A stretch of DNA of 64,000 nt from Acidobacteriota bacterium (GTDB lineage: Bacteria > Acidobacteriota > Terriglobia > Acidiferrales > UBA7541): assembly GCA_003225315.1 (NCBI GenBank), contig QHZD01000028.1, positions 62,001 through 126,000 of the forward strand, read 5' to 3'. Position 1 is the stretch's first letter. Each line of letters starts with the position of its first letter. The position numbers and the translations under genes were made by a program. The notes under the pieces were generated by a model. That model ran no database searches. It worked only from the letters and a program-made list of their open reading frames with translations, and had not been told where the DNA came from. Shown here in pieces: positions 41,242 through 63,739 of the stretch.

Positions 41242-41265
41242 CGAAAGAGGGAGCTTGAATTTTGG

Positions 41266-42132: not shown

Positions 42133-42149
42133 GAACGGCAGGAAAATCC

Positions 42150-44670: not shown

Positions 44671-44677
44671 GGGAGCC

Positions 44678-46129: not shown

Positions 46130-46169
46130 GTGAATGGCAGATCGACCAGTTCGAGGAAAACGAATAGCG

Positions 46170-47693
46170 ATGGCCACGAATCGAGAGTTCACCTTCGAAG
46201 ACTACTGGGCGATTCTTCGCCGACGGCGCTGGTTACTGGTCCTCCCGGTGGCCGCGGGAGTGATAGGGGGTTTTCTGTTGAGCCTGGTTCTGCCTGAAAA
46301 GTATACGTCGCACACAATTGTCCTAGTCGAACGCCCGGTAGTGGGAGATACGTACGTCAAGCCGGTCATGACCGAGGATCTCAACCAGCGCCTGGCAAGC
46401 ATGAAAGAACAGATCCTGAGCCGCACGCAGTTACAGCACCTCGTGGAAAAATTCGGTCTGTACAAGAAAGACGCCGGCACCTTACCTATGGAAGCGTTAG
46501 TCGAGCGGCTGCAGCAGTCTATCGCAGTGACACCGCTGAACCCCATGCAGGGCACACAATCTGCGGGGCTGCCCGGCTTCAATGTGGACGTCACGTTCCG
46601 GGAGGCGCGGGTCGCCCAACAGATTTGTTCTGAAATCACCTCGATGTTCATCAAGCAGAATTTGCACCTCCACGAGCAACAGGCCGAAGACACGACGCAA
46701 TTCATGGCCAAACAATTGGAGGATGCCAAGGCCAAGCTCGACGACCAAGACGCCAAGCTGGCCGCGTTTCAATCCCACTATGTGGGTGCGCTTCCCGATG
46801 ATGAAAAGACCACCCTTACGTTGCTCACGGGAACGACGCAGCAACTCGAGGCCGTTACACAGTCCCTCAACCAGGCCCTGCAAGACAAGGCATTTACGGA
46901 GTCTATGTTAAACCAACAAGTAGCAGCCAGGAAATCCTCGGCGGAAGGCCAAAATCCGCAGACTCTAGAACAACAAGTCGGCAAGCTGCAGGATCAGCTG
47001 CTTTCGCTGCAAGGGCACTACACGGAAGAGCATCCGGACGTGGTGAAACTCAAGAACGAGATCGCAGATCTGCAGAGGAAGATTCAGGAAGCTCCTACGG
47101 CGCGACCGGGCCAACCCATCGACCAGAAGGCAAGAGCAACCGTGATTGAGTCACCGGAAATCCAACAGCTGAGGGCGCAGTTGCACCAAAATGAGGTAGC
47201 CATCCGCCTGAAGACAGCGGAGCAGGAAGGCCTCCAAAAGCAAATTAGGGTATTGCAGGCCCGGATTCAGTTGAGCCCAACGATTCAGCAGGAGTTCAAA
47301 GCCTTAACGCGGGACCATCAAACCGCGCAGGATTTCTACAACGATCTGTTGAAGAAACGAAACGAATCGCAGATGGCCACAGAGCTGGAGCACCGTCAAC
47401 AAGGCGAACAGTTCCGCGTGTTGGATCCGCCCAGTTTGCCGGAGCGGCCCTCCTTTCCCAATCGACCCCTCTTTGGCATAGGAGGCCTGGGGTTAGGTTT
47501 CGTTTTGGGTTTGGGCTTGGTGCAAGTAGCTGAGTGGCGGGACACATCGATGAGGAATAAGCAGGATATTGATATGCATCTCGGAGTGCCCACTTTGGCG
47601 CTGATTCCTTGGGCCAATCGGACGTCCGTCAGCAAGAACGGCAGGAGCAGTCACATTCCTGCGAAGCGAAGTGAGCTCGGTTTGCGCGCTTAA
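46170..47693 (+). CDS. Wzz/GumC-type chain-length and export protein
   Basis: About 507 residues. A Wzz domain opens the protein (FTFEDYWAILRRRRWLLVLPVAAGVIGGFLLSLVLPEKYTS), with the first membrane helix at about 24-44, a long periplasmic coiled coil (GNVR-type) with many Gln/Glu heptads (QLEDAKAKLDDQDAKLAAFQ), and a second membrane helix about 445-467 (GIGGLGLGFVLGLGLVQVAEW) with a Pro-rich site before it (LPERPSFPNRP). It spans the inner membrane and sets polymer length. ATG at 46170 is preferred over 46134. Confidence 0.9.
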   Translation: MATNREFTFEDYWAILRRRRWLLVLPVAAGVIGGFLLSLVLPEKYTSHTIVLVERPVVGDTYVKPVMTEDLNQRLASMKEQILSRTQLQHLVEKFGLYKKDAGTLPMEALVERLQQSIAVTPLNPMQGTQSAGLPGFNVDVTFREARVAQQICSEITSMFIKQNLHLHEQQAEDTTQFMAKQLEDAKAKLDDQDAKLAAFQSHYVGALPDDEKTTLTLLTGTTQQLEAVTQSLNQALQDKAFTESMLNQQVAARKSSAEGQNPQTLEQQVGKLQDQLLSLQGHYTEEHPDVVKLKNEIADLQRKIQEAPTARPGQPIDQKARATVIESPEIQQLRAQLHQNEVAIRLKTAEQEGLQKQIRVLQARIQLSPTIQQEFKALTRDHQTAQDFYNDLLKKRNESQMATELEHRQQGEQFRVLDPPSLPERPSFPNRPLFGIGGLGLGFVLGLGLVQVAEWRDTSMRNKQDIDMHLGVPTLALIPWANRTSVSKNGRSSHIPAKRSELGLRA

Positions 47694-47711
47694 AGCTTGA
47701 GAGCGGAGAGT

Positions 47712-48668
47712 ATGTACGAAAAGTTCTTCGGTTTGAACGAAAGCCCGTTCCGGATCAATCCCGACCCGCGCTATGCATTCTTGACCTTGAGCGCACGAGA
47801 AGCGCTGGCCGGCATGACGTACGGGATTCAGACTCGGAAAGGCATCATTCTGCTTACAGGCGAGGCAGGAACGGGAAAGACGACGCTGCTTAACATGCTG
47901 ATGAAATGGCTCCACCATCAGCGAGCCGCAACCGCCTTTGTATTCAACACCCAGCTAAACGTAAATGACTTGTTCGAGTATTTGATGGCGGATTTCGGGA
48001 TCTACTCTGAATCGCGCTCCAAGGCCGAGATGCTTATGAAGCTTAACCGCTGGCTGCTGGATCGTCAGCAGGCGGGGGAGCCGGCAGTTCTAGTCGTGGA
48101 CGAGGCACAGAACCTCACACCGCAACTCCTCGAAGAAATCCGCCTTCTCACCAATTTAGAGACTTCGACGGAGAAGTTGCTCCAAATTGTACTGTCGGGA
48201 CAGCCAGAGCTGGAGACGAAACTCAGACATCCCCAACTGCGACAACTTCGGCAAAGGATTACGTTGTGCTGCAGAACCAGCCGGCTTTCGCTGGAAGAAA
48301 CGCGTGGCTACATCGCACAACGCCTTCATATCGCCGGAGCGAACGGCAGAGCGATCTTTACCGCGGAAGCCATCGAACGGCTCCACAAATACGCCTGTGG
48401 GATTCCCCGCGTGATTAACGTTCTTTCGGACCATGCTTTGATCAATGCCTTCGTGGATGACCGAAAATTTGTTACCCCCCAAATGGTAGATGATGCAGCA
48501 CGTGAATTCGAGCTCTTCGCCGGTGCGCCCGATGATCAGGCTGCCAATTCAATGTCTCAAGATAACTCGCGAGAGAGTGGCTCACTGCTCCAGGAATTCG
48601 CCAAGCGGCAGGATCGCATTCGTCAGCGTCCTTCCGTGTTTGTCGAATCAAAGGAACGAATTCTATGA
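47712..48668 (+). CDS. ExeA-like AAA ATPase of exopolysaccharide loci
   Basis: About 318 residues. The Walker A is GEAGTGKTT near residue 52, Walker B LVVDEAQN near 127, and the arginine-sensor and lid segments (LRQLRQRITLCCRTSRL, IPRVINVLSDHAL) match the ExeA/XrtA-associated ATPases found next to polymer kinases. MYEKFFGLNESPFRINPDPRY is the typical start. GGAG lies four bases before ATG 47712. Its stop overlaps the kinase gene start as ATGA. It probably powers or controls export assembly. Confidence 0.9.
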   Translation: MYEKFFGLNESPFRINPDPRYAFLTLSAREALAGMTYGIQTRKGIILLTGEAGTGKTTLLNMLMKWLHHQRAATAFVFNTQLNVNDLFEYLMADFGIYSESRSKAEMLMKLNRWLLDRQQAGEPAVLVVDEAQNLTPQLLEEIRLLTNLETSTEKLLQIVLSGQPELETKLRHPQLRQLRQRITLCCRTSRLSLEETRGYIAQRLHIAGANGRAIFTAEAIERLHKYACGIPRVINVLSDHALINAFVDDRKFVTPQMVDDAAREFELFAGAPDDQAANSMSQDNSRESGSLLQEFAKRQDRIRQRPSVFVESKERIL

Positions 48669-49585
48669 GTCGCATCTTTGAGGCTCTCCAAAAGATTCAA
48701 TCGCAGCAAACGCCAGTAGTACCAGGTGCAGAGACAATACCGCCCGAACCTGTGGCTTTTTGGACTGAGCAACGCGAAGAGGAGTTGCGCCCGACCTCAA
48801 GTTTCGCACCTTCCGAACCTTCCCCTCGTCCATCGTTGACCTCGTTCGCTCCCGGGCTAAATGCGTTGCGACAACGCTGCGCAAAGCCTGCCTGGAAGCT
48901 CCACAAGGATTCCCTCGTTTTGTTCAATGAGCAATCTTTCGACCGATGCGCCGAACAATTCCGCATTTTGCGTGCGCGCCTGTATCGCCTGCGTGAAAAG
49001 AAACCCTTTCGCACTTTGCTGGTTACAAGCGCCCAGGCTGGTGAAGGAAAGTCGTTCGTAAGCCTGAATCTTGCGCGCGCGATCGTGCATCAGCACGAAC
49101 GGCATGCCTTGCTCATTGACGCTGATCTTCGCGCCCCCAAACTGCATGTGAGTTTGGGAACCCCCTCCTCTCCAGGGCTCAGCGACTACCTTCGTGGCGA
49201 CGCCGACGAGTTTTCCATCATTCAGTCGGGCACCGGCGAGAATCTCTTCTTCATTCCCGCTGGGAGACCAGTCTCAAATCCGACGGAATTGCTTGGCAGC
49301 ACGAGGGCGAAGAGTTTGTTCGAGCGGCTGAACACTCTGTTCGATTGGGTGATCGTGGACACGTCGCCAGTATTGCCGGTGTCGGACGCTACTGTGTTGG
49401 CGCCAATGTGTGATGGAGTAATCCTCGTCGTTGGCGCGGGCAGGACTTCCTCCGATCTGGCTCGGACGGCCTGTCAGGAGCTTCGGGAGAGCAGATTGCT
49501 GGGTGTAGTCCTAAACGGCGTTGAAGATGACGCCGTTGGCAGCCCTTACGCGTACTACGGGAGAAGCGAACACGTAAGGAGTTAA
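48665..49585 (+). CDS. Bacterial tyrosine kinase (CpsD/CapB type)
   Basis: A 306-residue P-loop kinase. A disordered N-terminus (EPSPRPSLTSF) precedes Walker A SAQAGEGKSFVSLN near 120, Walker A' ALLIDADLRAPKLH near 141, and Walker B DWVIVDTSPVLPVSDA. The C-terminus has a small tyrosine cluster (SPYAYYGRSEHVRS), which is where such enzymes autophosphorylate. It works with the Wzz protein to control polymer length and export. The ATG overlaps the ATPase gene's stop. Confidence 0.92.
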   Translation: MSRIFEALQKIQSQQTPVVPGAETIPPEPVAFWTEQREEELRPTSSFAPSEPSPRPSLTSFAPGLNALRQRCAKPAWKLHKDSLVLFNEQSFDRCAEQFRILRARLYRLREKKPFRTLLVTSAQAGEGKSFVSLNLARAIVHQHERHALLIDADLRAPKLHVSLGTPSSPGLSDYLRGDADEFSIIQSGTGENLFFIPAGRPVSNPTELLGSTRAKSLFERLNTLFDWVIVDTSPVLPVSDATVLAPMCDGVILVVGAGRTSSDLARTACQELRESRLLGVVLNGVEDDAVGSPYAYYGRSEHVRS

Positions 49586-49904: not shown

Positions 49905-51119
49905 ATGAAGCCAATTGCACATGCTCGAAGCACCAAAGCACTTGCTCTCAGCTCCGGTTTCTTGAAAGAGACGGCCGGCCCCAGGGAAGGATGTGAAACT
50001 CCTCTCCGGTATAGCCGTTCGTCCGACTTGCAGACTCGCGAGATCCTTTCCGAAGGAATGTTTCGAAGGGTTCTCCGCTGGGAACGCAAACGGGCGGAAC
50101 GGTATCAAAAGTCCTTCATGCTAATGCTCCTGGATGCCTCGCAACCTCTCCTAACGGATCGAGGTCAAAGGACCTTGCCGGCAATTCTCGCGGCACTTTC
50201 ACGCTCTACAAGAGAAACAGACATGGCCGGCTGGTATCAGGAGGAAGCTATTCTAGGCGTACTATTCACCGAAGTCTGCGAAGCTGACCGCCGTTCGCTT
50301 GAGAATCTGTTGCGGGCCAGCATTACCGAATCGCTCCGGGCAAAGCTGGGTGCAGAGCTGGCCGACTGGATTCGCATTTCATTCCATTTCTTTCCAGAGG
50401 GCTGGAACGAGCCGAATCGCGACAATGGGGCGGACGTCACGCTGTATCCAGACTTGCTCAATCAAGATGATACCAAGAAGCTTCCTCGAATTCTGAAGAG
50501 AGCGATGGATATTACAGGGAGCATTTTGGCTCTCCTGCTTTTCTCTCCTGTGTTTGCGATTATTTCCACCATCATCAAACTGACGTCGAAAGGGCCGATC
50601 TTCTATCGTCAAGAAAGAGTGGGTCAGTACGGACGGGAATTTACGTTCCTGAAATTCAGGTCCATGACGTGCGCGAACGACCCGGGCATCCATCGGGATT
50701 ATGTGAGGCGATTCATCGCCGGAGAGATCGGTTCGAAAGCAACCGGCTCTGACAAGAATCCAGTTTTCAAAATTACGGCGGATCCGCGGGTCACGCGCGT
50801 GGGAAAGTTTCTGCGTAAGACGAGCCTGGATGAGCTACCCCAATTCATCAACGTCCTTAAAGGGGAAATGTCTCTGGTCGGGCCGCGGCCTCCGATTCCC
50901 TATGAACTGGAATCGTATAGGACCTGGCACCGGCGCCGCGTGTTGGACGTAAAGCCTGGAATCACCGGATTGTGGCAGGTCAAAGGCCGAAGCAGGACTT
51001 CGTTTGACGACATGGTTCGGCTGGACCTTCGTTACGCGGGCACATGGTCGCCCTGGCTGGACATCAAAATCCTGCTGCAAACTCCACGGGCCGCCTTTTT
51101 TGGCGAAGGCGCCTACTGA
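49905..51119 (+). CDS. Priming sugar-phosphate transferase with degenerate GGDEF-like N-domain
   Basis: A 404-residue protein. Residues about 205-404 are the bacterial sugar transferase domain: [20 protein letters not shown] (membrane helix), [44 protein letters not shown] and [13 protein letters not shown], all typical of enzymes that put sugar phosphate on undecaprenyl phosphate. Residues about 40-180 look like a GGDEF fold: [25 protein letters not shown], then a long helix, [22 protein letters not shown] in the place of the GGDEF hairpin. GWYQEE replaces GGDEF, so it is not a working cyclase but may bind a nucleotide. This start begins with GGTTCCACATC before ATG. Confidence 0.85.
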
Positions 51120-51163
51120 GATATGCAAGTGGAGCATGATGCTGATTTTTTCAAAGGATGCCT

Positions 51164-52267
51164 ATGACAACGCAAGCTGACTCTGGGCGCAATAACTACG
51201 CTCCAGGAATCTCCATTCCTATTTCGGAAAGCCTGAAGTATCAGGCCCACAAGTCCCCCTCTGACCTGGTGCGCGTAGGCATATTTGGTTACGGTTATTG
51301 GGGTCCGAATGTGGTGAGGAACCTCCACGCTCTGGAAAACTGCCAGGTCGTGACCATCTGCGACAAGAATCCTGCCGCACTCAAGCGTGCAAACAGGGTC
51401 TACCCGGGTGTGCACCTGACTACGGACTTTTCCGAGATTATGACATCCCCACGGATTGACACGGTTGCCATCGTCACTCCGGTCTGGACGCACTTCGAAC
51501 TTGCGAAAACCGCCTTGCTGAATGGCAAGCATGTTTTCGTCGAAAAGCCTTTTACATCGACTCCGCAACAAGCGGAGGAGCTCATCGAATTGGCGGAGCG
51601 GACACGGCTCAAGATCATGGTGGATCACACGTTTCTGTTCAGCGGCGCGGTGCGGAAAATCCGCGAGCTCGTTGACAACGGAACGCTGGGGAACCTTTAT
51701 TACTTCGATTCCACTCGCGTAAACCTCGGCCTCTTCCAGCATGACGTGAACGTAATTTGGGACCTCGCTCCTCACGATATGTCCATCATGGATTACATCA
51801 TTCAGGAGAAACCCGAGGCCGTCGTCGCCACGGGTGGAACGCATTTGAATTGCCTGGCAGACCTGGCCTTCATCACCGTGTATTTTCCAAATAAAGTAGT
51901 GGCGCACATCAACGTCAACTGGCTCTCGCCTGTAAAAGTTCGGACGACCTTGATCGGCGGTGAGAAAAAGATGCTGGTATGGAATGACCTGGAGGCCGAC
52001 GAGAAGATCAAGGTCTACGACAAAGGCGTGCAAATCACGAATGGCCAGAGCGTCTATGAATTGCTGGTGAGTTACCGTTCCGGGGATGTATGGGCGCCAC
52101 GAGTGGAACAAGCGGAGGCTTTGAAGCTCGAGCTCGAGTATTTCATGGACTGTATCAGGAACGATCGAACGCCCTTCAATGACGGTCTTGCAGGATTGCG
52201 CGTGGTCAAGCTCCTCGAAGCGGCTGACCAATCACTAAAGGAGAGAGGGAAAATCGTCCGGCTATGA
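51164..52267 (+). CDS. Gfo/Idh/MocA oxidoreductase (UDP-sugar 3-dehydrogenase type)
   Basis: About 367 residues. The NAD-binding loop is VGIFGYGYWGPNVVRNL, followed by KHVFVEKPF with the catalytic Lys (EKP) and the second conserved HDMSIMDYI region in APHDMSIMDY. Genes of this class (WlbA) oxidise the 3-position of UDP-N-acetylglucosaminuronate as the first step of 2,3-diamino-sugar synthesis; the fused WlbB/WlbC-like gene that overlaps its stop supports this. I start at ATG 51164 because AAGG is six bases ahead; ATG 51158 has none. Confidence 0.9.
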   Translation: MTTQADSGRNNYAPGISIPISESLKYQAHKSPSDLVRVGIFGYGYWGPNVVRNLHALENCQVVTICDKNPAALKRANRVYPGVHLTTDFSEIMTSPRIDTVAIVTPVWTHFELAKTALLNGKHVFVEKPFTSTPQQAEELIELAERTRLKIMVDHTFLFSGAVRKIRELVDNGTLGNLYYFDSTRVNLGLFQHDVNVIWDLAPHDMSIMDYIIQEKPEAVVATGGTHLNCLADLAFITVYFPNKVVAHINVNWLSPVKVRTTLIGGEKKMLVWNDLEADEKIKVYDKGVQITNGQSVYELLVSYRSGDVWAPRVEQAEALKLELEYFMDCIRNDRTPFNDGLAGLRVVKLLEAADQSLKERGKIVRL

Positions 52268-53958
52268 ATCACTATCAGTGCGTTGCTGCTGATGTACTTT
52301 TCGGAAAAAACGTAAAACTCTCCGAGTTTATTAACCTGTATGGCTGCGAAATCGGAGACGAAACCAAGATCGGCGCATTCGTGGAGGTCCAGAAAAATGC
52401 CCGGATTGGCCGCCGCTGCAAGATCTCAAGCCATAGCTTTATCTGCGAAGGTGTGACGATTGAAGATAACGTCTTTGTCGGTCATGGAGTTACATTCATC
52501 AACGATTCGTATCCTCGCGCTACGGCACCCGAAGGAGGCCTTCAAACTGAGAAGGACTGGAGAATCGAGACAACCTTGGTGAAGCGGGGTGCTTCGATTG
52601 GCTCTGGAGCGACGATTCTGTCCAAGGTTGTTATCGGCGAGAATGCGATCGTCGGTGCAGGAAGCGTTGTAACTCGGGATGTGCCTCCAAATGTCATTGC
52701 TGCCGGAAATCCAGCGAAAGTTTTGCGCGCGATCCCTCGCCAAGATAACCGCTCGAATCGAAACGGACATATTCCCTTCTTGGATCTTGTAACGCCTCAC
52801 CAGGAGCTTGAAGAGGAGCTTGTCTCTGTTTTCCGTTCTGCGTTGCGTTCAGCCAGCTTTGTGGGAGGCTCAATGGTCGAGGAATTCGAACATGATTTCG
52901 CTCGTTTTTGCGACTCACAGTTTTGCATCGGTGTGGGTAGCGGAACCGACGCTCTTCGGTTTGCCCTGATCGCTGCCGGCATCCAGTCCGGAGATATTGT
53001 CCTTACGGTTCCTTTAACGTTCATCGCCACAACCGAAGCGATTTCGCAGGCGGGCGGACGCCCCGACTTTGTGGATATCGACCCTCGCAGCTACACAATG
53101 GATCCGCAGAAACTGTTGCACTATGCGGAGACGCAGTGCGTGGTTGACGCGGGCACGGGCCGATTGGTCCATAGAGTTTCTCGTAAGCCGGTTACGGCAG
53201 TCATCCCCGTGCACCTCTACGGCCGGCCCGTCGACATGGACCCCATCCTGGAAATTGCTACGCGATTCAACCTCATGGTCATTGAGGACGCATGCCAGGC
53301 ACATGGAGCGGAATATTTTTCAAAGAAAGAATGGCGTTGGAAGAAAGTCGGTTCGATGGGACGAGCCGCCGCTTTCAGTTTTTACCCAGGCAAGAACCTC
53401 GGAGCCTGTGGCGAAGCAGGTGCTGTTACCACGGATGACGAAGACGTTGCTCGGAAAATCCGCATGCTCAGGGACCATGGCCAATTGCGCAAGTATTATC
53501 ACGAGATGGAAGGATACAACGGCAGGCTCGACGCGTTGCAGGCGGCTATTCTCCATGCAAAGCTGCGCCGCCTTTCTGAATGGAACGAGGGACGGCGCGA
53601 AGCTGCCGCGCGCTATCGTGAGCTTTTTGATTCTGCCTCCGCCGCCCTTAAGGTACCCGAGGATCCCGATTGGGTCCGGTCCGTCTATCACCTTTATGTT
53701 GTTCGCGCGCTGGATAGGGATGGGCTTCAAAAACATTTAGCCGAAGCGGGCATTAGCACTGGCATCCACTATCCTATTCCGCTTCATCTGCAAAAAGCCT
53801 ACGAGTCTCTCGGCTATAAGAAAGGAGACTTCCCTGCTTCGGAGGAAGCAGCATCGGAAATTCTTTCTCTGCCATTGTTCCCGGGGATTTCCTTAGCCGA
53901 GCAGCAACGAGTCACGGAAGCCATATCGGAATTTGCTCCTGTTCAAACTGCCCAGTGA
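52264..53958 (+). CDS. Fusion of a WlbB-type N-acetyltransferase and a WlbC-type aminotransferase
   Basis: A 564-residue two-domain protein. Residues 1-160 form a left-handed beta-helix acetyltransferase: GDETKIGAFVEVQKNARIGRRCKISSHSF, VTIEDNVFVGHGVTF and GATILSKVVIGENAIVGAGSVVTRDVPPN. Residues about 170-560 are a DegT/DnrJ/EryC1 aminotransferase with the PLP Lys at 377 in FSFYPGKNLGACGEAG and the helix signature GVGSGTDALRFAL, IEDACQAHG. In known pathways these are separate enzymes, so this fusion may pass the amino-sugar directly from transamination to acetylation. The ATG overlaps the previous gene's stop (ATGA). Confidence 0.92.
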   Translation: MNHYQCVAADVLFGKNVKLSEFINLYGCEIGDETKIGAFVEVQKNARIGRRCKISSHSFICEGVTIEDNVFVGHGVTFINDSYPRATAPEGGLQTEKDWRIETTLVKRGASIGSGATILSKVVIGENAIVGAGSVVTRDVPPNVIAAGNPAKVLRAIPRQDNRSNRNGHIPFLDLVTPHQELEEELVSVFRSALRSASFVGGSMVEEFEHDFARFCDSQFCIGVGSGTDALRFALIAAGIQSGDIVLTVPLTFIATTEAISQAGGRPDFVDIDPRSYTMDPQKLLHYAETQCVVDAGTGRLVHRVSRKPVTAVIPVHLYGRPVDMDPILEIATRFNLMVIEDACQAHGAEYFSKKEWRWKKVGSMGRAAAFSFYPGKNLGACGEAGAVTTDDEDVARKIRMLRDHGQLRKYYHEMEGYNGRLDALQAAILHAKLRRLSEWNEGRREAAARYRELFDSASAALKVPEDPDWVRSVYHLYVVRALDRDGLQKHLAEAGISTGIHYPIPLHLQKAYESLGYKKGDFPASEEAASEILSLPLFPGISLAEQQRVTEAISEFAPVQTAQ

Positions 53959-53968
53959 GGTCTTCCAG

Positions 53969-55105
53969 ATGCAGACGACCATAACAAATCATACAAGCAC
54001 TTTGTCAGAGCCTTTCATCCTTCGGCCAGAACCATCCATAGGCACTCTCAGTGGCCGCAAGATATGGATCGATCTTGAAAATTCTCCGCACGTGCCGTTT
54101 TTCCGCCCGATTATCGAGGAGCTCGGAAAACTCGGCCTGCAAGTGTTTGTAACTGCTCGTGACTGCGCTCAGACCCGCGAACTCGCGGACTATTTTGGAC
54201 TCTCGTACAAGCTATTTGGACGACACAGCGGAAAGAACAAGGTGGCAAAGGCCGTGAGATTGGGCGTCCGGATGTGTCAATTGACACCTACGATCAGGAG
54301 TGAGAAGCCGGCCCTGGCACTCTCCCATGGGTCGCGGTCTTCGACGTTTCTCGCCTCAATCTTGCGTATTCCGTCGATCACGATCTTCGACTATGAGTAC
54401 GTGAACCAGATTACTCTCCCATCCCTGAACTGGGTGATGGTTCCGGAAGTTCTTCCGGACGAATCTGTTCACTTTAGAAGAGACAGGATACTCAAGTATC
54501 CCGGCATCAAGGAAGATGTTTACGTTCCGTTTTTCAGGCCCGATCCGTCCGCGATGGGCCAACTCGGAATCAACGGCAAGGATATCGTGGTCACTGTGCG
54601 GCCACCGGCAACCAACGCTCACTATCACAATCCAGAGAGCGAGCACTTGCTGGTTGCGGCAATCGAGTTCATCGCTCGAAATCCAGCCGTCAAGATTATC
54701 TTGCTGCCGCGCTATCCGGAACAAGCGCGTGCTCTGAGAAAGGCCTGGTCCGAGCTCTTCGGTAACGGCCGTATGTTGATTCCTGAACACGTCGTCGACG
54801 GACTCAACCTAATCTGGTATTCCGACCTCGTCATCAGTGGTGGCGGCACTATGAACCGCGAGGCAGCAGCATTGAATGTTCCAGTCTACAGCATCTTTCG
54901 AGGAAAAATAGGAGCTGTTGACCGTTATTTGTCCGGCTGCGGACGCCTCGTTTTATTGGAAAACACCGAGGACGTGCCAAAGCGAGTGATGATTACTCGG
55001 CGAACCCGTCCAGCCAACCCCAACTCTGGGACTACCATTACCCTGCAAGCAATTGTCAGCCACGTCTTAAAAGTGTTAGAGCTTACTGCCGGACTGGTTA
55101 ACTAA
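53969..55105 (+). CDS. DUF354-type glycosyltransferase-like protein
   Basis: A 378-residue protein of the DUF354 family, which has a GT-B (MurG-like) fold. KIWIDLENSPHVPFFRPIIEELGKLG is the family opening, followed by GLSYKLFGRHS, ALSHGSRSSTFLASILRIPSI and the C-terminal donor loop SDLVISGGGTMNREAAALNVP. It is likely a glycosyltransferase for the exopolysaccharide repeat. I start at ATG 53969 with GAGG eight bases ahead, just after the aminotransferase gene. Confidence 0.87.
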   Translation: MQTTITNHTSTLSEPFILRPEPSIGTLSGRKIWIDLENSPHVPFFRPIIEELGKLGLQVFVTARDCAQTRELADYFGLSYKLFGRHSGKNKVAKAVRLGVRMCQLTPTIRSEKPALALSHGSRSSTFLASILRIPSITIFDYEYVNQITLPSLNWVMVPEVLPDESVHFRRDRILKYPGIKEDVYVPFFRPDPSAMGQLGINGKDIVVTVRPPATNAHYHNPESEHLLVAAIEFIARNPAVKIILLPRYPEQARALRKAWSELFGNGRMLIPEHVVDGLNLIWYSDLVISGGGTMNREAAALNVPVYSIFRGKIGAVDRYLSGCGRLVLLENTEDVPKRVMITRRTRPANPNSGTTITLQAIVSHVLKVLELTAGLVN

Positions 55106-55185: not shown

Positions 55186-56433
55186 ATGGCTGAGAATCAT
55201 TCGCGTGTCATGGACGACGATGAGGCCAAGACAGCGGTCCGGAAGCTTCTTGCCTACTGTCAGATCAACGATTGGGCTGGTTACGACCCTTACGATGCGC
55301 TAAACAGTAGGATTCTCACTGCAGTGCCTTTCCTGAGGACCAAACTTCCTCGGCTTGTATTCACCCAAGCCTTGAAGCGGAGTCCAGTTAACATCCGTCC
55401 GTTGTTGCTTATTAAGAAGACGCAGAACCCAAAAGCGATCGGCCTCTTTCTCTCGGCGTTGCTAAACCTTTCAAAGGTTGGACTGATTGACCAGGAAAGT
55501 CTCATCGAGAAGATGATCGAGCGGCTCATTGCCATTCGGTCGCAAGGCCTTCCCTACTGGTGCTGGGGGTACAGTTTTCCGTGGCAGACGCGCACGATCA
55601 TAGTGCCGGCTGGGGCGCCTAACCTGGTCTGCACCTGCTTCGTCGCCAGCGCGCTTTTGGATGCTTATGAGCAGCGCGGCGATGCGCGCTGTTTGAGTAT
55701 GGCGATGAGCGCCGCGGACTACGTCCTCGGCGAGCTTTACTGGGCTGAGGGCGATACTGTCGCAGGATTCAGCTATCCCTTGCGCTCCTTGCGGGTTCAA
55801 GTTCACAACGCCAACTTCCTGGGCGCCGCTCTTCTTTGCCGAGTGTACAAACATACGCGAGAGGAAAGATTCCTGGAGCCCGCCCTCAGGGTTGCACGCT
55901 ATTCAGCATCAAGGCAGCGTGCAGACGGCTCGTGGGATTATGGCGAGGCAACTCCACAACGATGGATCGACAACTTTCACACTGGCTTCAACCTCTGCGC
56001 ACTGAACTCCATTTCTCGGGATGTCGAGACGCCAGAATTCGAGTCTCACATTCGGCGCGGCTTCGATTTCTACCGCGCCCACTTTTTCTGTGCGGACGGG
56101 TCAGTCCGATATTTTCACAACCGTAAGTATCCTGTGGACATCCACTGCGTGGCCCAGAGCATTATCACGCTCATGACACTTAGAGATCTTGACCCTGAAA
56201 GCATTGCCACGGCTCGTTCGGTGCTTCGGTGGGCCATGAATCATATGTGGGACGAGCGTGGTTTCTTCTACTATCGGATCCTTCGTTCTTGCACCATCCG
56301 CACTTCATATATGCGCTGGTCACAGGCGTGGATGCTTCTCGCGATGTCCACACTGCAATTCGAATCAGGTGTTGAGGCGGAGAACAGGCACCCGAAAATG
56401 TCAGAAGCTTTCGCTAGGGCCTATAATCATTAA
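55186..56433 (+). CDS. Alpha/alpha-toroid protein of polysaccharide loci
   Basis: A 415-residue soluble protein made of repeating helix pairs: LVCTCFVASALLDAYEQRGDARCLSMAMSAADYVL, LGAALLCRVYKHTREERFLEPALRVARYS, and a conserved SWDYGEATPQRWIDNFHTGFNLCAL that looks like the substrate rim of a six-hairpin glycosidase. No catalytic pair is certain. Similar genes stand in many exopolysaccharide clusters, sometimes under wrong names. The mature fold may act on a polymer end. Start ATG at 55186 (MAENHSRVMDDDE). Confidence 0.7.
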   Translation: MAENHSRVMDDDEAKTAVRKLLAYCQINDWAGYDPYDALNSRILTAVPFLRTKLPRLVFTQALKRSPVNIRPLLLIKKTQNPKAIGLFLSALLNLSKVGLIDQESLIEKMIERLIAIRSQGLPYWCWGYSFPWQTRTIIVPAGAPNLVCTCFVASALLDAYEQRGDARCLSMAMSAADYVLGELYWAEGDTVAGFSYPLRSLRVQVHNANFLGAALLCRVYKHTREERFLEPALRVARYSASRQRADGSWDYGEATPQRWIDNFHTGFNLCALNSISRDVETPEFESHIRRGFDFYRAHFFCADGSVRYFHNRKYPVDIHCVAQSIITLMTLRDLDPESIATARSVLRWAMNHMWDERGFFYYRILRSCTIRTSYMRWSQAWMLLAMSTLQFESGVEAENRHPKMSEAFARAYNH

Positions 56434-56484: not shown

Positions 56485-57552
56485 ATGATTGAATTCATTT
56501 TCACCCTAGACTATGAGATTTACGGTGATGGGAGCGGGACGCTTAGAGAATTGGTATATGAGCCCACCGAACAGCTCCGGACAATTTTTCGAAAGTGGAA
56601 TGCGCAGTTTGTGGCTTTCATCGAAGTTGCGGAGTTGGAGAAGATTGAAGCGCACGAAACAGATGAAGCTATTCCTCTAGTTAAAAAGCAAATACAAGAT
56701 CTATGTCGGGACAATCATGAAATTGCGTTGCACCTGCATCCGCAGTGGTGCAACGCCCGACGCCAGCACGACAAGTGGGTTCTCGATTATGGAGAATATA
56801 ATCTTTGCATTTTGCCTAGAAGGAGGATTTCTGAGATTGTTGATCGCTCTCTCCAGTATTTGCGCAAGATTGTCGGACAACCAGAATTCATCCCGTTGTC
56901 GTTTCGTGCCGGAAATTGGCTGTTTCAACCGACTGGAACTGCGGCAAGCGTGCTAGCGGAAAAAGGGATCCAAATAGATTCTTCGGTTTTCAAAGGAGGA
57001 CTCCAGCACAACCATACGCTGGACTATCGCCGCGCCTCAAGAAATGGCTATTACTGGAAATTTAGCAGTGACGTGAATCTGCCCGATCCACGAGGGCCGT
57101 GGATGGAGGTGCCGATCTACACCGAAATGGTTCCGTTCTGGAGGATGCCGACCACGAAGCGCATGGGATTTGCTCGTGGGTTTGGGATCCATGGTCAAGG
57201 CTTCAGGCAGAAATTGAATAGCGGCCGTGATTTGTTACGTTTTTCATATCCCATGAAGCTTGATTTTTGTCGCATGAATCTTAGAGAGCTAACAGCAATA
57301 ATGAACCGGGTTATCCAGAACGATCGACAAGACCCCTCGTCGTACAAGCCAATAGTCGCGATTGGACACACGAAAGATCTGACCGACCCACGAACGGTCG
57401 ACAATTTCCTTGCGTTTTTGCGAACAAATGGCATAACGATCTCGACGTTCGCGATTATTTACTCAAAACTGTTAAACGAAATGAGCCAGGCCCCCTGTAT
57501 TACGGGCGGTTGTGAGACGCAAAGCAATCTCGTGCCCGTACTCAAAGGATAA
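56485..57552 (+). CDS. Polysaccharide deacetylase-like protein
   Basis: A 355-residue protein with a (beta/alpha)-barrel of the NodB/carbohydrate esterase-4 type. The first metal Asp is in FTLDYEIYGDG, the His pair is in HEIALHLHPQWC, and a C-terminal His is in IAIGHTKDLTDP. There is no signal peptide, so it would act on a lipid-linked intermediate or nucleotide sugar at the cytoplasmic face, or it is exported otherwise. It likely removes acetyl groups from the amino-sugars. It lies 50 bases after the toroid gene. Confidence 0.8.
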   Translation: MIEFIFTLDYEIYGDGSGTLRELVYEPTEQLRTIFRKWNAQFVAFIEVAELEKIEAHETDEAIPLVKKQIQDLCRDNHEIALHLHPQWCNARRQHDKWVLDYGEYNLCILPRRRISEIVDRSLQYLRKIVGQPEFIPLSFRAGNWLFQPTGTAASVLAEKGIQIDSSVFKGGLQHNHTLDYRRASRNGYYWKFSSDVNLPDPRGPWMEVPIYTEMVPFWRMPTTKRMGFARGFGIHGQGFRQKLNSGRDLLRFSYPMKLDFCRMNLRELTAIMNRVIQNDRQDPSSYKPIVAIGHTKDLTDPRTVDNFLAFLRTNGITISTFAIIYSKLLNEMSQAPCITGGCETQSNLVPVLKG

Positions 57553-57557
57553 TTCCG

Positions 57558-58538
57558 ATGACCGCTTTGGCGACGAGTAGTCACACAACAGCATCGGGAC
57601 CTGAACGTGCGAACAGTTTACGGTACGTGTTAATAACCCCTGCCCGAAACGAGGCTGCTTTCATTGAGCAGACGATGCAGGCGGTCGTTCGGCAAACAGT
57701 GCGCCCGACCAGATGGGTAATCGTAAGTGATGGCTCAACCGACGATACGGATCGAATCGTAAATAACTACGTTGCGAAACACAATTGGATCGAACTGCTG
57801 CGGATGCCCGAGCGGCAAGAGCGTCACTTCGCGGGCAAAGTTCATGCTTTCAACACAGGGTACGCCAAGCTTAAGGACCTTGAGTTCGACGTAATTGGCA
57901 ACTTGGACGCGGATATCACTTTCGATGAAGACTACTTCGGTTTTATTTTGAGTAAATTCGCTGAGAACCTCCGCCTGGGTGTAGCGGGGACGTCATTTCA
58001 CGAGGAATCCCGCCATTATGACTATCGCTTCACCAGCATCGAGCATGTCTCTGGGGCCTGCCAATTATTCCGCAGCGAATGCTTCGAAGAAATCGGCGGC
58101 TACACACCTATCAAAATTGGCGGAATCGACTTGGTCGCGGTGATTAGTGCCCGAATGAAGGGATGGCAGACGAAGTCGTTTCTTGAAAAGAGCTGCGTTC
58201 ATCACCGCAGCATGGGAACGGCAAAACAAAGCAGACTCATGGTCGCTTATAGAGGTGGCAAAGGCGATTACATGCTCGGTGGACACCCTTTGTGGGAGTT
58301 TGTGCGGTGCATCTATCAGATGACGCAACGGCCTTTTCTCCTAGGTGGCGGACTTCGCCTTGCGGGATTCTTTTGGGCAATGTTGAGCCGCCTCGACAAA
58401 GTAGTCCCTGACGATTTCGTGCGGTTCCGAAGGGGTGAGCAGATGCTCAGGCTACGCAGTTTCATTGACAAGCTTACTAGGTTGAACGTTCGAGCCGGTG
58501 ACCGCGACAAGGCTGCTCTTTCGATGCCGCGCTCCTAG
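57558..58538 (+). CDS. Family 2 glycosyltransferase
   Basis: A 326-residue GT-A enzyme. The N-terminal strand is LRYVLITPARNEAAFIEQTM, the nucleotide signature is VSDGSTDDTDRIV, and the metal site is NLDADITFDEDY (DxD). The C-terminal half has helices that likely meet the membrane (LLGGGLRLAGFFWAML). It starts six bases after the deacetylase gene and probably adds one sugar of the repeat unit. Confidence 0.9.
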   Translation: MTALATSSHTTASGPERANSLRYVLITPARNEAAFIEQTMQAVVRQTVRPTRWVIVSDGSTDDTDRIVNNYVAKHNWIELLRMPERQERHFAGKVHAFNTGYAKLKDLEFDVIGNLDADITFDEDYFGFILSKFAENLRLGVAGTSFHEESRHYDYRFTSIEHVSGACQLFRSECFEEIGGYTPIKIGGIDLVAVISARMKGWQTKSFLEKSCVHHRSMGTAKQSRLMVAYRGGKGDYMLGGHPLWEFVRCIYQMTQRPFLLGGGLRLAGFFWAMLSRLDKVVPDDFVRFRRGEQMLRLRSFIDKLTRLNVRAGDRDKAALSMPRS

Positions 58539-58583
58539 AGCGCTCCGCTGTTTTTCAAGAACCGGTTTACTCCGACAAGTTCT

Positions 58584-59171
58584 ATGTTGGCACTTCTGAA
58601 ACATACGATTACAAAGAACCTGCAGAGAATATTCTGGATCTATTGGACCGATAACTTTGTTATCGAGAGTGTCTCGGGAATGAAAGAGATTGAGCCTGCC
58701 ATCCCATGCACTCTTTTACCGATAACGTTAAACAACTACTTTCGCGTGAAAGACTTTCGAGAGGAGAGCCGAGTTCTGGAATATCGGGAAAAGCTAACTC
58801 GAAAGGAGCTAGGTTTTTTTTGTCAGTCCAATGGAAGGATGGTAGGTAGCATATGGGCGACCATGAACGATACGGACCAGCCGATCGTTGCACGGATGTA
58901 TATGCGACTCCTGCCCAAAGAGGCGTTGATTCACGATATCGTGACGGGACCGCAGTTTCGTGGAATGGGTGTCGGTCCGTTCATGGTGGAAAAAACAGCC
59001 TTACAATTGTTAACCGTCATCGGAGTAACTCGTATCATCGTGGACGTGAACGTGAGGAATCGCCCCTCGTTGCGTATGATGGGAAAAATGGGACTAGAGA
59101 TGAAAGAGCGAATGCTTTATGTTTCTGCGCTCGGCCGACTAGTACTGCAAAAACCCATAAGATCCGCATAG
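58584..59171 (+). CDS. GNAT family acetyltransferase
   Basis: A 195-residue GNAT. The acetyl-CoA loop is IVTGPQFRGMGVGPFMVEKTALQL (Q/RxxGxG/A), preceded by the strand ALIHDIV and followed by VTRIIVDVNVRNRPSLRMMGKMGLEM. The N-terminal 50 residues are less conserved. It probably acetylates an amino-sugar or a surface protein in this locus. Confidence 0.82.
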   Translation: MLALLKHTITKNLQRIFWIYWTDNFVIESVSGMKEIEPAIPCTLLPITLNNYFRVKDFREESRVLEYREKLTRKELGFFCQSNGRMVGSIWATMNDTDQPIVARMYMRLLPKEALIHDIVTGPQFRGMGVGPFMVEKTALQLLTVIGVTRIIVDVNVRNRPSLRMMGKMGLEMKERMLYVSALGRLVLQKPIRSA

Positions 59172-59286
59172 AATCATCGCGCGTTCACTTTTCTTATCAA
59201 CCGACGTTGACAGGTGCTGGACGGACACTTCTGAGTATTGTCCACCGTCCATAGAAGTTGGGGAGCAAGAGGACAAGGAAAAGAAA

Positions 59287-60291
59287 GTGCAGATTCTAAC
59301 AGTCACGCCGACCGAGATAAATTGGCATTCGGGGTTACCTGTTTTTGCCTCAGAGCCATTTCTGAAGTCCGTAAGTGACGAGTACGGATGGCTTGGTGGC
59401 CACGATAGCTCAGGTCAACTTCGGTGTGTGCTCCCTTACACGGTTATTCGAAAGCCTGGCTTCCATATCATTCGCTTCCGGACCGAGACGATTCCGCTAG
59501 CAGACCTCGCGGTCGAAGAAGAAATGTTCTTTCTGGACGATGTCGTGAGGTATTTTCGACGCAGCGGCGCCGATATGATTATTCCTGCAACCAATACTGC
59601 GCTTTTCCGGACTTACCCAAATGGCGCTGTTGCAGCTCCGTATGGCACATTCATTAAGAACTTGGACAAAGGTGAAGATATTTTATGGAGTGAATTGCAC
59701 GGCGATTGCCAGCAGAACATCCGTAAGGCGACTAAGGCTGGCTTGCGCATCAGGAGCGGCAAAGAACATCTCGAGACCGCCTATCATCTCATCGCCGATA
59801 CATTGCGCAGGTCCGGTGTCAAGTTTAGGAGTAGTGACGAGTTCGGGAAAATTCTGTTGAGTCTGGGCGATAAAGTCAGAATATTTCTCGTCGAGCAAGG
59901 AGGGATTGTCCAGGCCTGCATGGTCTCTCCTTTCAGCTTGCACAGCGCCTATGACTGGTATAGCGGTACGATTGGAAGACCGTCGAGAGGGGCAATGAAC
60001 TTGCTTCTATGGCAGGCCATGCTGGAGTTTCAGGCGTTGGGCGTCAAACAGTTCAACTTTACGGGTATACGAATCAATCCGGAAAAAGGATCAAAGCAAG
60101 AAGGAATATGGAATTTCAAGATGCGTTTCGGAGGTCGACAAGTTCAGGGCTATATGTGGAAGTACTCTCTTCGGCCCATAAAATTTGCAGCTTACTCCTT
60201 GGCAGTACGCCTGCTCAGAGGAGGCGATATTGTGGACGTCGAACGCCACAAACTTGAGAGAAAGGTTTCTCAAGTTGGAACGTCGTGCTAA
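59287..60291 (+). CDS. FemAB-like GNAT-fold transferase, copy 1
   Basis: A 334-residue protein of the FemAB/exopolysaccharide-linked GNAT type. Two linked GNAT-like halves are seen; ELHGDCQQNIRKATKAGLRIR and LSLGDKVRIFLVEQGGIVQACMV bracket the cofactor cleft, and LLWQAMLEFQALGVKQFNFTG plus NPEKGSKQEGIWNFKMRFGG are the family ending (a folded lid with KxxFG). FemAB enzymes move amino acids from aminoacyl-tRNA or attach acyl groups to cell-wall precursors. A GTG follows AAGGAAAAG. It is one of two such genes here. Confidence 0.85.
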   Translation: MQILTVTPTEINWHSGLPVFASEPFLKSVSDEYGWLGGHDSSGQLRCVLPYTVIRKPGFHIIRFRTETIPLADLAVEEEMFFLDDVVRYFRRSGADMIIPATNTALFRTYPNGAVAAPYGTFIKNLDKGEDILWSELHGDCQQNIRKATKAGLRIRSGKEHLETAYHLIADTLRRSGVKFRSSDEFGKILLSLGDKVRIFLVEQGGIVQACMVSPFSLHSAYDWYSGTIGRPSRGAMNLLLWQAMLEFQALGVKQFNFTGIRINPEKGSKQEGIWNFKMRFGGRQVQGYMWKYSLRPIKFAAYSLAVRLLRGGDIVDVERHKLERKVSQVGTSC

Positions 60292-60333
60292 AAAAAGTCG
60301 CCTATCGGGCACAGCCCAACCTAAAAGCCTAAC

Positions 60334-61374
60334 TTGACGGTATATGCTTTCAATCCGCTAGAAGACCTCCGGTGGGACGAGTTTGTACGAAAGAACCCGC
60401 AGGCTTCCATATACCACACGCGAGGCTGGCTGGAGGCCTTGCACCGAACGTACGCGTACGAACCACTAGTTTTTTCCACTTCGCCTCCGGCCGCTGATTT
60501 GACGAACGGTATCGTCTTTTGCCGCATCAGTAGTTGGCTGACGGGGTGTCGAATGGTTTCATTGCCTTTTGCTGACCACTGTGAACCACTTGTGGAAAGC
60601 GTGGACGATCGAAAAGAGATTATCAGTTCTCTGCTGTGTGCATTCAAAATAGAACGATGGAAATATGTCGAAATCCGGGCGTCGAGCCCAGATCTTGTGA
60701 GTGAAGATGCTGCGGAGAAGAGCCGCTCGTTTTTCTCTCACGTGATGGACCTACGCCCTAGTCTTGATCTCATCTTTCAAGGGTTTAACAAAGATTCGAT
60801 TCAGAGGGCGGTTCGGCGCGCGGAGCGTCAAGAACTCACCTATGAAGAGGGGCGATCCGAGGCTCTTTTGAGAGATTTCTATTACTTAATGTTGAAAACC
60901 CGCCGGCGTCATAGGTTGCCCCCTCAACCGATTGATTGGTTCCGTAATTTGATTTCGAGTCTGGGTAATCGACTGACAATTCGTCTAGCATCAAAGAACG
61001 GAAATCCTGTCGCCAGCATCCTGACACTGAACCATCGAGATGCCGTTGTTTACAAGTATGGTTGCTCTGACCGGAAATTTCACAATTTAGGAGGTGTGTC
61101 CTTTTTGTTCTGGAAGACCATTCAGGAAGCCAAAGCGCTGGGGCTCCGGGAATTTGATTTAGGTCGTTCTGAAATTGAGAACACGGGGTTGATCACTTTC
61201 AAAGATCGATTGGGCGCGAGGCGCTCAACTCTGACTTATTTGAGATTTTCCACTCGGCACTCTCGGCCGACAACTGAAGGCTATCGAATGAAATTGGCCA
61301 AGCGCCTTTTTGCCTGCATGCCCGACGGCCTGCTCGTTGCAACGGGAAGGATGTTATATCGCCACGTCGGCTGA
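60334..61374 (+). CDS. FemAB-like GNAT-fold transferase, copy 2
   Basis: A 346-residue paralogue of the previous gene with the same layout: WDEFVRKNPQASIYHTRGWLEAL opening, FNKDSIQRAVRRAERQELTYEEG in the middle, and LLFWKTIQEAKALGLREFDLGRSEIENTGLITFKDRLGARRS at the end. The TTG start is at 60334. The two copies differ much in sequence, so they may act on different acceptors or donors. Confidence 0.83.
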   Translation: MTVYAFNPLEDLRWDEFVRKNPQASIYHTRGWLEALHRTYAYEPLVFSTSPPAADLTNGIVFCRISSWLTGCRMVSLPFADHCEPLVESVDDRKEIISSLLCAFKIERWKYVEIRASSPDLVSEDAAEKSRSFFSHVMDLRPSLDLIFQGFNKDSIQRAVRRAERQELTYEEGRSEALLRDFYYLMLKTRRRHRLPPQPIDWFRNLISSLGNRLTIRLASKNGNPVASILTLNHRDAVVYKYGCSDRKFHNLGGVSFLFWKTIQEAKALGLREFDLGRSEIENTGLITFKDRLGARRSTLTYLRFSTRHSRPTTEGYRMKLAKRLFACMPDGLLVATGRMLYRHVG

Positions 61375-61449
61375 ATCCTGCTGCAGGCGCATTATCGAAG
61401 CGCGCCAGTCTAAATGGCAGACTGAAGAGCGCGAATCCAAGGGGAAGTC

Positions 61450-62817
61450 ATGAACGGGGCCTTTCTCGATTATTACCGGTGTCCGGAAAGTTTTGCCACT
61501 TTCGGTCTCAGCGGAGAATTGTCCAACAGCAACGGCTTTTTCCACTTTGGTTCTGACACAATTTGCTACGGACGGACCTGTGTCGGTTATTTGGCCAAGT
61601 CTGTCACTGATGGGCTTTACGATGTATCTGATCGGGTGACGGCTGATGGATCGACGCTCCAACTTCCGTTCAACCCGTCGGAAGTTGTCTCTAACCTGCG
61701 TTATGAGCGCTATGTCTCAGCCTTGAATGGTAATGGGAAACAGCTTACTTCTGCACCTGCCATCCGAAAAGCCTATTACAAAATGCGGCCGATGCTGTCC
61801 TTATCCGTGCGCAAGCATTTCCAAAGAATATGTTTGAGCGACTGGGAGCAAATTCCCTTCCCCCAATGGCCCGTGGATTTGAGCGTTGAGCTCACGTTCG
61901 AAAGGCTTCTGGCTCTGTTGCTGAAGGTTCATGGCGTCGACCAAATCCCGTTCATTTGGTTTTGGCCAAATGGATTCTCCAGTTGCGCCATCATGACTCA
62001 TGACGTGGAAGCATTATCTGGTTTTGAGTTTTGCTCAACCTTGATGGATTTGAACGAGGCTTATGGGATCAAAGCCTCATTCCAGTTGGTACCAGAAGGA
62101 CAGTATCCAGTGTCGGCGGACTTCCTCAGCAGCATTCGGGACCGCGGATTTGAAATCAACGTTCACGACCTGAACCACGATGGCCTTCTGTTCAGCAATC
62201 GGGAGGTATTCTTGCAGCGCGCCGAGCGAATCAATCGGTACGCAAGGGAATACCATGCGGCGGGGTTCCGGTCCGCTGTCCTCTACAGGAATCCGGAGTG
62301 GCTTGAATCCTTAGATTTCTCCTACGACATGTCTATTCCAAATATTGGCCACCTGGAAGGTCAAAGGGGTGGCTGTTGTTCCGTAATGCCATTTTTTGTT
62401 GGAAATATTCTGGAGCTCCCACTCACTACAACACAGGACTACTCTCTATTTCATATCCTGAAGCAGCATTCGATTGACTTGTGGGTACGCCAGATCACTC
62501 TGATCCTTGAAAAACACGGTTTGGCCAGCTTCATCCTTCACCCCGACTACCTTCGGGAGCCGCTCGCTCAAAAGACGTACAAAGCCTTGTTAACCTATCT
62601 TGGCGAGTTGCGTTCCGAGGGTAAGATCTGGATGGCTCTCCCACAAGAAGTGAATCAATGGTGGCGCCAAAGAAGCCAAATGAAATTGGTTCGCCGTGGA
62701 AATGGGTGGGAGATTGAGGGTGCAGGCAAAGATCGTGCCCGGATCGCCTATGCCAATCTTGAAGGAGAGCGTGTCGTCTACCACCTGGAATCGCCGTGCG
62801 TAGCGGCTGCAGGTTGA
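61450..62817 (+). CDS. Polysaccharide deacetylase-like protein, second copy
   Basis: A 455-residue protein with the metal Asp in AIMTHDVEALSGF, the His pair in FEINVHDLNHDGLLF and later conserved RSAVLYRNPEW. The N-terminal 150 residues are an extra domain without recognised motif. It has no signal peptide. Likely a deacetylase of the same class as 56.5 kb but on another position or sugar. Confidence 0.78.
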   Translation: MNGAFLDYYRCPESFATFGLSGELSNSNGFFHFGSDTICYGRTCVGYLAKSVTDGLYDVSDRVTADGSTLQLPFNPSEVVSNLRYERYVSALNGNGKQLTSAPAIRKAYYKMRPMLSLSVRKHFQRICLSDWEQIPFPQWPVDLSVELTFERLLALLLKVHGVDQIPFIWFWPNGFSSCAIMTHDVEALSGFEFCSTLMDLNEAYGIKASFQLVPEGQYPVSADFLSSIRDRGFEINVHDLNHDGLLFSNREVFLQRAERINRYAREYHAAGFRSAVLYRNPEWLESLDFSYDMSIPNIGHLEGQRGGCCSVMPFFVGNILELPLTTTQDYSLFHILKQHSIDLWVRQITLILEKHGLASFILHPDYLREPLAQKTYKALLTYLGELRSEGKIWMALPQEVNQWWRQRSQMKLVRRGNGWEIEGAGKDRARIAYANLEGERVVYHLESPCVAAAG

Positions 62818-62869
62818 CGCGTCGTTCCGTGCCGCTTTCTGATACATTTCCGATGCGTCAGGTGAACCA

Positions 62870-63739
62870 ATGAATCGCACAACAGAGCAGGTCCCCTTGT
62901 CTCCCGGTAGCCTTGCTGCTACAGTTCCGGCGGCATTTTCGGAAGACAGCGCCACCTCTACCAACGAATCACTCCCACAGAGGAAAGAGGCGCATAGAGC
63001 CGGCTTGCTCATCGTAAACGCGGACGATTGGGGAAGGGATGCCTACACCACTGACAGAATCCTCGATTGCTCCGCGCGAGGAGTTGTATCCTCGGTGAGT
63101 ACCATGGTTTTTATGGAAGATTCAGAACGCGCTGCGGCCATAGCACTCCAGCAGGAAATTGACGCCGGCCTCCACCTCAACCTCACAACACCGTTTTCGG
63201 CTCCTAACTGTCCCGTCCGACTCGTCGAACGCCAACACGAACTCAGTCGCTATCTTACGCGGCATCCCCTTGCCCGTGCCGTGTTTCATCCTGGTCTCGC
63301 CCGGTCTTTCGAGTATGTTGTGTCTGCCCAAGTCGATGAATTTTGCCGTCTTTACGAAAAGAGTCCAGCCCGTCTCGACGGCCATCACCATATGCACCTC
63401 TGTGCCAATGTGCTGCTCGGCGGATTGTTGCCGCGCCGAACGATCGTCCGGAGACACTTTTCCCACGAACCGGGTGAAAAAGTCCTGCGGAATGGAGCCT
63501 TCCGGGCGTTTACCGGTGCTTTCCTGTCTCGACGCCACCGTCTTGTCGACTTCTTCTTCTCGCTGCCGCCGCTCGAACGCCCCAATCGCTTGCAACGGAT
63601 CTTTTCCCTTGCACGCCAGAGCGTGGTCGAGATCGAAACTCATCCTGTCAATCCCAATGAGTATCGGTTCCTGGTGAGAGGCGACATTTTCCGTTGGGCC
63701 GGAGATTGCCCGATTGCCTCCAGTTTTGCCGTGGCATAG
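62870..63739 (+). CDS. ChbG/HpnK-type carbohydrate deacetylase
   Basis: A 289-residue YdjC-like deacetylase. The metal ligands are in LLIVNADDWGRDAY (DD at 52-53), then GLHLNLTTPF and DGHHHMHLCAN, the HHH motif, all intact. Enzymes of this family remove acetyl from N-acetylated sugars or from hopanoid sugars. Its presence next to two other deacetylase-like genes strongly suggests an amino-sugar polymer with partly free amino groups. The ATG at 62870 begins MNRTTEQVPL. Confidence 0.9.
   Translation: MNRTTEQVPLSPGSLAATVPAAFSEDSATSTNESLPQRKEAHRAGLLIVNADDWGRDAYTTDRILDCSARGVVSSVSTMVFMEDSERAAAIALQQEIDAGLHLNLTTPFSAPNCPVRLVERQHELSRYLTRHPLARAVFHPGLARSFEYVVSAQVDEFCRLYEKSPARLDGHHHMHLCANVLLGGLLPRRTIVRRHFSHEPGEKVLRNGAFRAFTGAFLSRRHRLVDFFFSLPPLERPNRLQRIFSLARQSVVEIETHPVNPNEYRFLVRGDIFRWAGDCPIASSFAVA

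Follow-up and report, generated by a model that had tools for sequence, protein, structure and literature searches.

Several described systems pair a deacetylase with a Fem-like acyltransferase. In the Caulobacter holdfast, the deacetylase HfsH and HfsK, a FemX-like tandem GNAT protein, are both thought to modify one polysaccharide, as is proposed below for the proteins studied here (PMC5362036, PMC8449245). HfsK, which resembles Fem aminoacyl transferases and has been proposed to acylate the amines exposed by HfsH (PMC5362036), is the best studied exopolysaccharide relative in terms of function. Deletion of hfsK in Hirschia baltica had no effect. The Pap cluster of Pseudomonas fluorescens F113 encodes a NodB-type protein (PapK), a GNAT-like protein (PapN), a FemX-like protein (PapO) and a YdjC-like protein (PapP) (PMC7716237). 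In the PEP-CTERM-type exopolysaccharide locus of Rubrivivax gelatinosus, nodB and femA adjoin, in the company of asparagine synthases (PMC3684757), and deacetylases were tied to exosortase loci as early as 2006 (PMC1569441). A literature search found neither a reaction for any FemAB protein of such exopolysaccharide loci nor a paper joining Acidobacteria, exosortase and exopolysaccharide.

The DNA analysed here (hereafter the window) is a stretch of 64,000 nucleotides from a soil bacterium of the Acidobacteriota. A first-pass annotation had pointed to six genes between positions 56485 and 63739 (two NodB-type, one ChbG-type, one GNAT and two FemAB-like), all of which proved to be long open reading frames on the same strand. 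They are part of one complete Wzx/Wzy-type exopolysaccharide operon, which runs from 43.9 kb to about 9.5 kb beyond the end of the window. The operon genes inside the window are:

43858-44670, + strand: Wza-like protein, export block
44657-46129, + strand: probable outer-membrane protein, no family match, export block
46134-47693, + strand: chain-length protein, export block
47697-48668, + strand: TIGR03015-like ATPase, export block
48665-49585, + strand: tyrosine autokinase, export block (whole block 43858-49585)
49905-51119, + strand: polyprenyl glycosylphosphotransferase, which starts the repeat unit (TIGR03025, above cut-off)
51158-52267, + strand: Gfo/Idh oxidoreductase, UDP-GlcNAc 3-dehydrogenase-like (NF040723, 176.6 bits, below the cut-off of 450)
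52264-53958, + strand: fused hexapeptide N-acetyltransferase/DegT aminotransferase, amino-sugar pathway (PF01041, E 1.4e-105; PF00132)
53933-55105, + strand: DUF354 protein with weak UDP-GlcNAc 2-epimerase similarity (PF04007, E 4.8e-41)
55186-56433, + strand: conserved protein with a sub-threshold match to the C-terminus of D-glucuronyl C5-epimerase (PF06662, E 0.0074, below cut-off)
56485-57552, + strand: DeacA, putative divergent CE4-like protein, rare (remote profile match, alignments)
57558-58538, + strand: family 2 glycosyltransferase (PF00535, E 4.1e-15)
58584-59171, + strand: GNAT-family N-acyltransferase (PF00583, E 3.7e-9)
59287-60291, + strand: FemA, second FemAB-like transferase (PF02388, E 9.1e-12)
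60334-61374, + strand: FemB, double-GNAT FemAB-like transferase, relative of TIGR03019 (PF13480, E 1.4e-17; PF02388, E 7.6e-11)
61450-62817, + strand: DeacB, predicted CE4/NodB-fold de-N-acetylase of 455 aa with N- and C-terminal extensions (AlphaFold2 model, Foldseek, residue counts)
62870-63739, + strand: ChbG/YdjC-type deacetylase-like protein with motifs NADDWG, LHLN and DGHHHMH, accessory (PF04794, alignment with 7vi8)

The remainder of the operon, beyond the window, encodes a glycosyltransferase, a protein resembling sugar epimerases, an oxidoreductase, another FemAB-like protein, the third of the operon (PF13480 score just under the cut-off), an asparagine-synthase-like protein, a Wzy-like protein and a Wzx-like protein. 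The third FemAB-like gene, followed by that of the asparagine-synthase-like amidotransferase, lies just past the window (L006:3180-6165). Additional to the genes listed in the first-pass annotation were this third FemAB-like and the AsnB-like gene, the family 2 glycosyltransferase gene within the run (57.6 kb), and the reading frame just upstream of the run with the C5-epimerase match (55.2 kb), homologues of which were present at a number of DeacB loci. In one relative (L060) the fused hexapeptide/DegT protein is encoded as two separate pieces. UDP-sugar dehydrogenases are encoded elsewhere in the genome. An amino-sugar route was found inside the operon, at 51.2-54.0 kb (the 3-dehydrogenase-like Gfo/Idh protein and the fused N-acetyltransferase/aminotransferase), so the case that the first-pass annotation had set against its own model, that of such genes occurring apart from amino-sugar pathways, does not arise here.

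At E 1e-3 the Pfam and NCBIfam models gave no match to either DeacA or DeacB, and sequence searches of the PDB likewise gave no identification (DeacB reached only 13.7 bits against PF01522, under the Pfam cut-off); other tests were therefore applied. An AlphaFold2 model of DeacB, obtained with an alignment of 45 homologues, had a pLDDT of 86 and a pTM of 0.87. Foldseek matched it to experimental structures of CE4 deacetylases, of which 3rxz came first (E 1.6e-8), superposition on a CE4 structure (VIA) gave a Z of 23.2 and an rmsd of 2.7 over 226 residues, and PuuE, ArnD and many further CE4 structures matched likewise. As modelled, DeacB has the NodB-homology (CE4) fold. It shares the fold and the metal-site-like and HPDY motifs with 3rxz, PuuE and ArnD, but is only about 13-17% identical to them and has extra regions at both ends, the N-terminal one spanning about 160 residues. 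The motifs conserved over 46 sequences were HD185VE187, [H/Q]239-D-L-N-H243-D(G), R274, R280 (YRN), QD330 and HPDY (H364). The candidate metal-site or catalytic residues D185, E187, H243, R280 and H364 were invariant in all 46; the first metal-site histidine, H239, was replaced by Gln in nine, so deacetylase activity is not certain for every member of the family. A GGCC segment was also conserved (C309 in 45/46, C310 in 46/46).

The other two deacetylase-like proteins are accessory. DeacA carries the motifs TLDYE, LHLHPQW, FRAGNW, DSSV and IGHTKD in a CE4-like order, and the alignment of its family (15 members) matched a CE4 profile with E 2.8e-5 and a score of 43.1; none of 30 column-shuffled controls scored above 16.1, and two unrelated families reached 16.9 and 18.7. 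Its profile found no match in the PDB, comparison with the DeacB profile gave no match, and its predicted model, for which only two sequences were used, had a pLDDT of 34; it may be called CE4-like, through the remote profile and the motifs only. It was found in 3/95 genomes of the order. ChbG passed the PF04794 cut-off (E 3.6e-21, 76.6 bits, cut-off 29.7) and recurs at three loci (L065, L069 and L070); no homologue of it was found in 20 related loci that were mapped, among them that of the closest sister, whose DeacB is 94% identical. The idea of the three deacetylases as one conserved set was rejected, as wide conservation was seen in DeacB only. The families assigned in the first-pass annotation to the GNAT, the two FemAB-like proteins and ChbG were recovered with Pfam models, that of DeacB was recovered through its predicted fold, and that of DeacA is left as a CE4-like resemblance.

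The best named family of FemB, by far, was TIGR03019, the XrtA-associated FemAB proteins (106.6 bits; FemA, 45.6 bits; both below the cut-off of 260.35). The lysine of its FK motif, K290, was present in 41/42 sequences. Among the 95 genomes of the order, clear homologues, counted as strong matches, were found for DeacB in 32, for FemB in 34 and for both in 28. In 25 of these 28 genomes the two genes share a strand and FemB ends within 300 bases of the start of DeacB, on its upstream side; the other three are incomplete or have the genes on separate contigs. Since the genomes are related to one another, the counts cannot be taken as independent events. A collection scan rendered 180 DeacB relatives; 79 loci were read, 62 of them with flanks on both sides. 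FemB lay within 1.2 kb of DeacB in 33 of the 62, upstream in 30 cases and downstream in three (contigs with FemB downstream include two labelled Rokubacteria and one Gp6 contig), and a good share of DeacB loci had no FemB within reach. Several of the hosts are MAGs under the labels Rokubacteria, Nitrospirae or Ignavibacteria and are possibly misbinned; the records named Granulicella, Edaphobacter and Bradyrhizobium bear no MAG label. That gene order varies but linkage persists favours a functional rather than a merely inherited linkage. When the co-occurrence of the genes was followed in this way, as the first-pass annotation had advised, FemB and DeacB were seen to be kept together across many otherwise different exopolysaccharide loci; the presence of ChbG varied between loci.

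The export and assembly genes of the operon were closest to families of XrtA loci, with scores amounting to 67 to 95% of the cut-offs (bits/cut-off: TIGR03027, 160.7/180; TIGR03007, 263.8/278.85; TIGR03015, 291.1/324.5; TIGR03018, 155.3/230.65). Wza, the chain-length protein, the kinase, the ATPase, a deacetylase beside a FemAB protein and asparagine-synthase-like genes are all shared with XrtA/PEP-CTERM (EpsH) loci. Unlike in those loci, the export scores lie below the cut-offs, the FemAB gene precedes that of the deacetylase, DeacB is larger, at 455 aa, and has no matching NCBIfam model, and no exosortase (PF09721) was found in this 97.6%-complete genome. Among the 62 flanked loci, an exosortase was located within 3 kb of DeacB in 14, all of which also had FemB near DeacB. 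Four of these neighbouring exosortases were scanned: all four passed TIGR04178 (signature) and two passed TIGR02602 (general), with the other two just short of it, but none reached the cut-off of any named class, a further difference from XrtA/PEP-CTERM loci. The architecture is best explained as exosortase-associated (XrtA-like), in a genome with no detected exosortase.

As families, CE4 enzymes are de-N-acetylases and the FemAB-like proteins of GNAT fold are amide-forming. From the operon content, the fold and motifs of DeacB, the family of FemB, the FemB-DeacB linkage and the exosortase neighbours seen in relatives, it seems probable that in this XrtA-like operon DeacB deacetylates an amino sugar and its partner FemB re-acylates the amine before export. 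As for the substrate, the order of the reactions, their location and the donor, which we infer, DeacB would work in the cytoplasm on an amino sugar within the growing and probably lipid-linked repeat unit and strip it of its N-acetyl group; FemB would then amidate the freed amine, capping it with a new acyl group, after which Wzx would flip the modified unit and Wzy would polymerise it. Neither DeacB nor FemB has an evident signal peptide, which would place both reactions ahead of the flipping step. FemA, the GNAT protein, DeacA and ChbG would be extra modifiers specific to this locus. Acyl-CoA or an acyl- or aminoacyl-ACP would be at least as likely a donor for FemB as aminoacyl-tRNA.

That last donor, put forward in the first-pass annotation, would mean that FemB (and FemA) load the freed amine with amino acids carried by tRNA, producing an aminoacylated, charged polymer. 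FemX transfers tRNA-derived amino acids onto peptidoglycan precursors; FemA and FemB score above the PF02388 cut-off of 24 bits (44.9 and 41.9 bits, each match covering part of the profile only) and weakly match the structure of an aminoacyl-tRNA-dependent peptide synthase, FemB also weakly matching FemX. However, their similarity to enzymes of known function is remote (E 1e-2 to 5e-4), and no acyl donor is known for HfsK (PMC5362036). A tRNA-dependent transfer is rather unlikely. It is likewise doubtful that the genes encode unrelated modifiers sharing one exopolysaccharide island, the deacetylases and the GNAT/FemAB proteins acting on different residues with no sequential chemistry. Such an arrangement would fit the variation of DeacA and ChbG between loci, and the closest sister locus, which keeps FemB-DeacB with no detected ChbG homologue, but it leaves unexplained the persistent adjacency of FemB and DeacB in loci of differing content and order.

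The first-pass annotation had also raised a possible link to the neighbouring amino-acid-activating genes (38-43 kb), as a new route to charge a surface polymer. These genes form a separate cassette:

36369-43165: carbamoyltransferase (- strand), LLM monooxygenase (+ strand), stand-alone adenylation enzyme (+ strand), aldo-keto reductase (- strand), hexapeptide acyltransferase (- strand) and carrier protein (- strand)

The adenylation enzyme gene lies at 39.6 kb, adjoined by the LLM gene, and the hexapeptide transferase gene at 42.2 kb. The LLM-adenylation pair recurs in six other genomes away from any DeacB match, with a recognisable carrier protein adjoining in five and a 74%-identical carbamoyltransferase in four. 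The relatives of the cassette (L158-L163 and L165) mostly have a carrier protein, often a carbamoyltransferase, and are in most cases independent of a DeacB locus. The adenylation enzyme would load an amino acid on the carrier, the LLM protein would oxidise it, and the hexapeptide transferase or FemAB would attach it to the polymer's amino sugar. The recurrence of LLM, adenylation and carrier genes as a cassette speaks for this, as does their distance to DeacB in a few genomes: 20 kb in this genome and its sister, 9 kb in G023, and 2.4 kb in G008, where FemB, DeacB, formyltransferase, LLM, adenylation, ACP and hexapeptide transferase genes stand in a row on one strand (L165:1826-9530). On a Verrucomicrobiota MAG contig (L093:8268-18636), an LLM-adenylation pair likewise occurs together with a FemB homologue and two copies of DeacB. 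Such proximity would be rare under random placement, yet genes for tailoring and for exopolysaccharides are found in shared islands, and it is therefore a lead, not proof. Because the cassette usually sits elsewhere, the adenylation genes were not taken into the exopolysaccharide operon; a close LLM-adenylation pair was found in the flanks of only 2/79 DeacB loci, and the carrier-protein gene of the window is on the strand opposite to the adenylation gene. With a carrier protein and a hexapeptide transferase of its own, the cassette need not feed FemAB; the genes of these two proteins overlap in the window, which suggests a FemAB-independent use of the carrier-bound group, although it also fits transfer to the polymer by the hexapeptide enzyme. 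Attachment of a carrier-bound amino acid to this polymer is quite unlikely. It appears highly improbable that the amines freed by DeacB receive, in some lineages, an (oxidised) amino acid that an NRPS-type adenylation enzyme and its carrier protein provide and that FemAB or the hexapeptide enzyme attaches; if true, the exopolysaccharide would be aminoacylated without the use of tRNA.

For the preferred reading, deacetylation by DeacB followed by acylation by FemB, there are published parallels. The phenotypes of HfsH/HfsK and the adjoining nodB and femA of an exopolysaccharide locus speak for it; the lack of effect of hfsK deletion in Hirschia baltica speaks against it. HfsH, which is cytosolic, and HfsK carry the same proposal of amine exposure followed by acylation, although hfsK lies outside the hfs locus while FemB and DeacB adjoin; what joins the latter two here is genetic linkage, and HfsH and DeacB are compared by enzyme type. 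The Pap cluster brings together the same four enzyme types in one exopolysaccharide cluster, a comparison by type with a cluster described in silico only. The core idea of the first-pass annotation, amines that are freed and then decorated, is therefore sound in that FemB and DeacB belong together, but it was anticipated by the closest known arrangements, HfsH/HfsK, Pap and the nodB-femA pair of XrtA/PEP-CTERM exopolysaccharide loci. The operon is a variant of a known arrangement, not a new kind of chemistry; what is new is the DeacB-FemB module, in which the deacetylase has no matching NCBIfam model, together with the exosortases of no named class that adjoin it and the retention of the module in a genome with no detected exosortase.

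These results define a two-gene FemAB-deacetylase module that is widespread in Acidobacteriota and occurs, too, in records bearing the names Granulicella, Edaphobacter and Bradyrhizobium; many relatives have an exosortase of an unnamed class beside it. It offers a compact system in which to ask whether FemAB proteins acylate amines exposed by deacetylation. If they do, the charge and stickiness of soil biofilm polymers would be affected.
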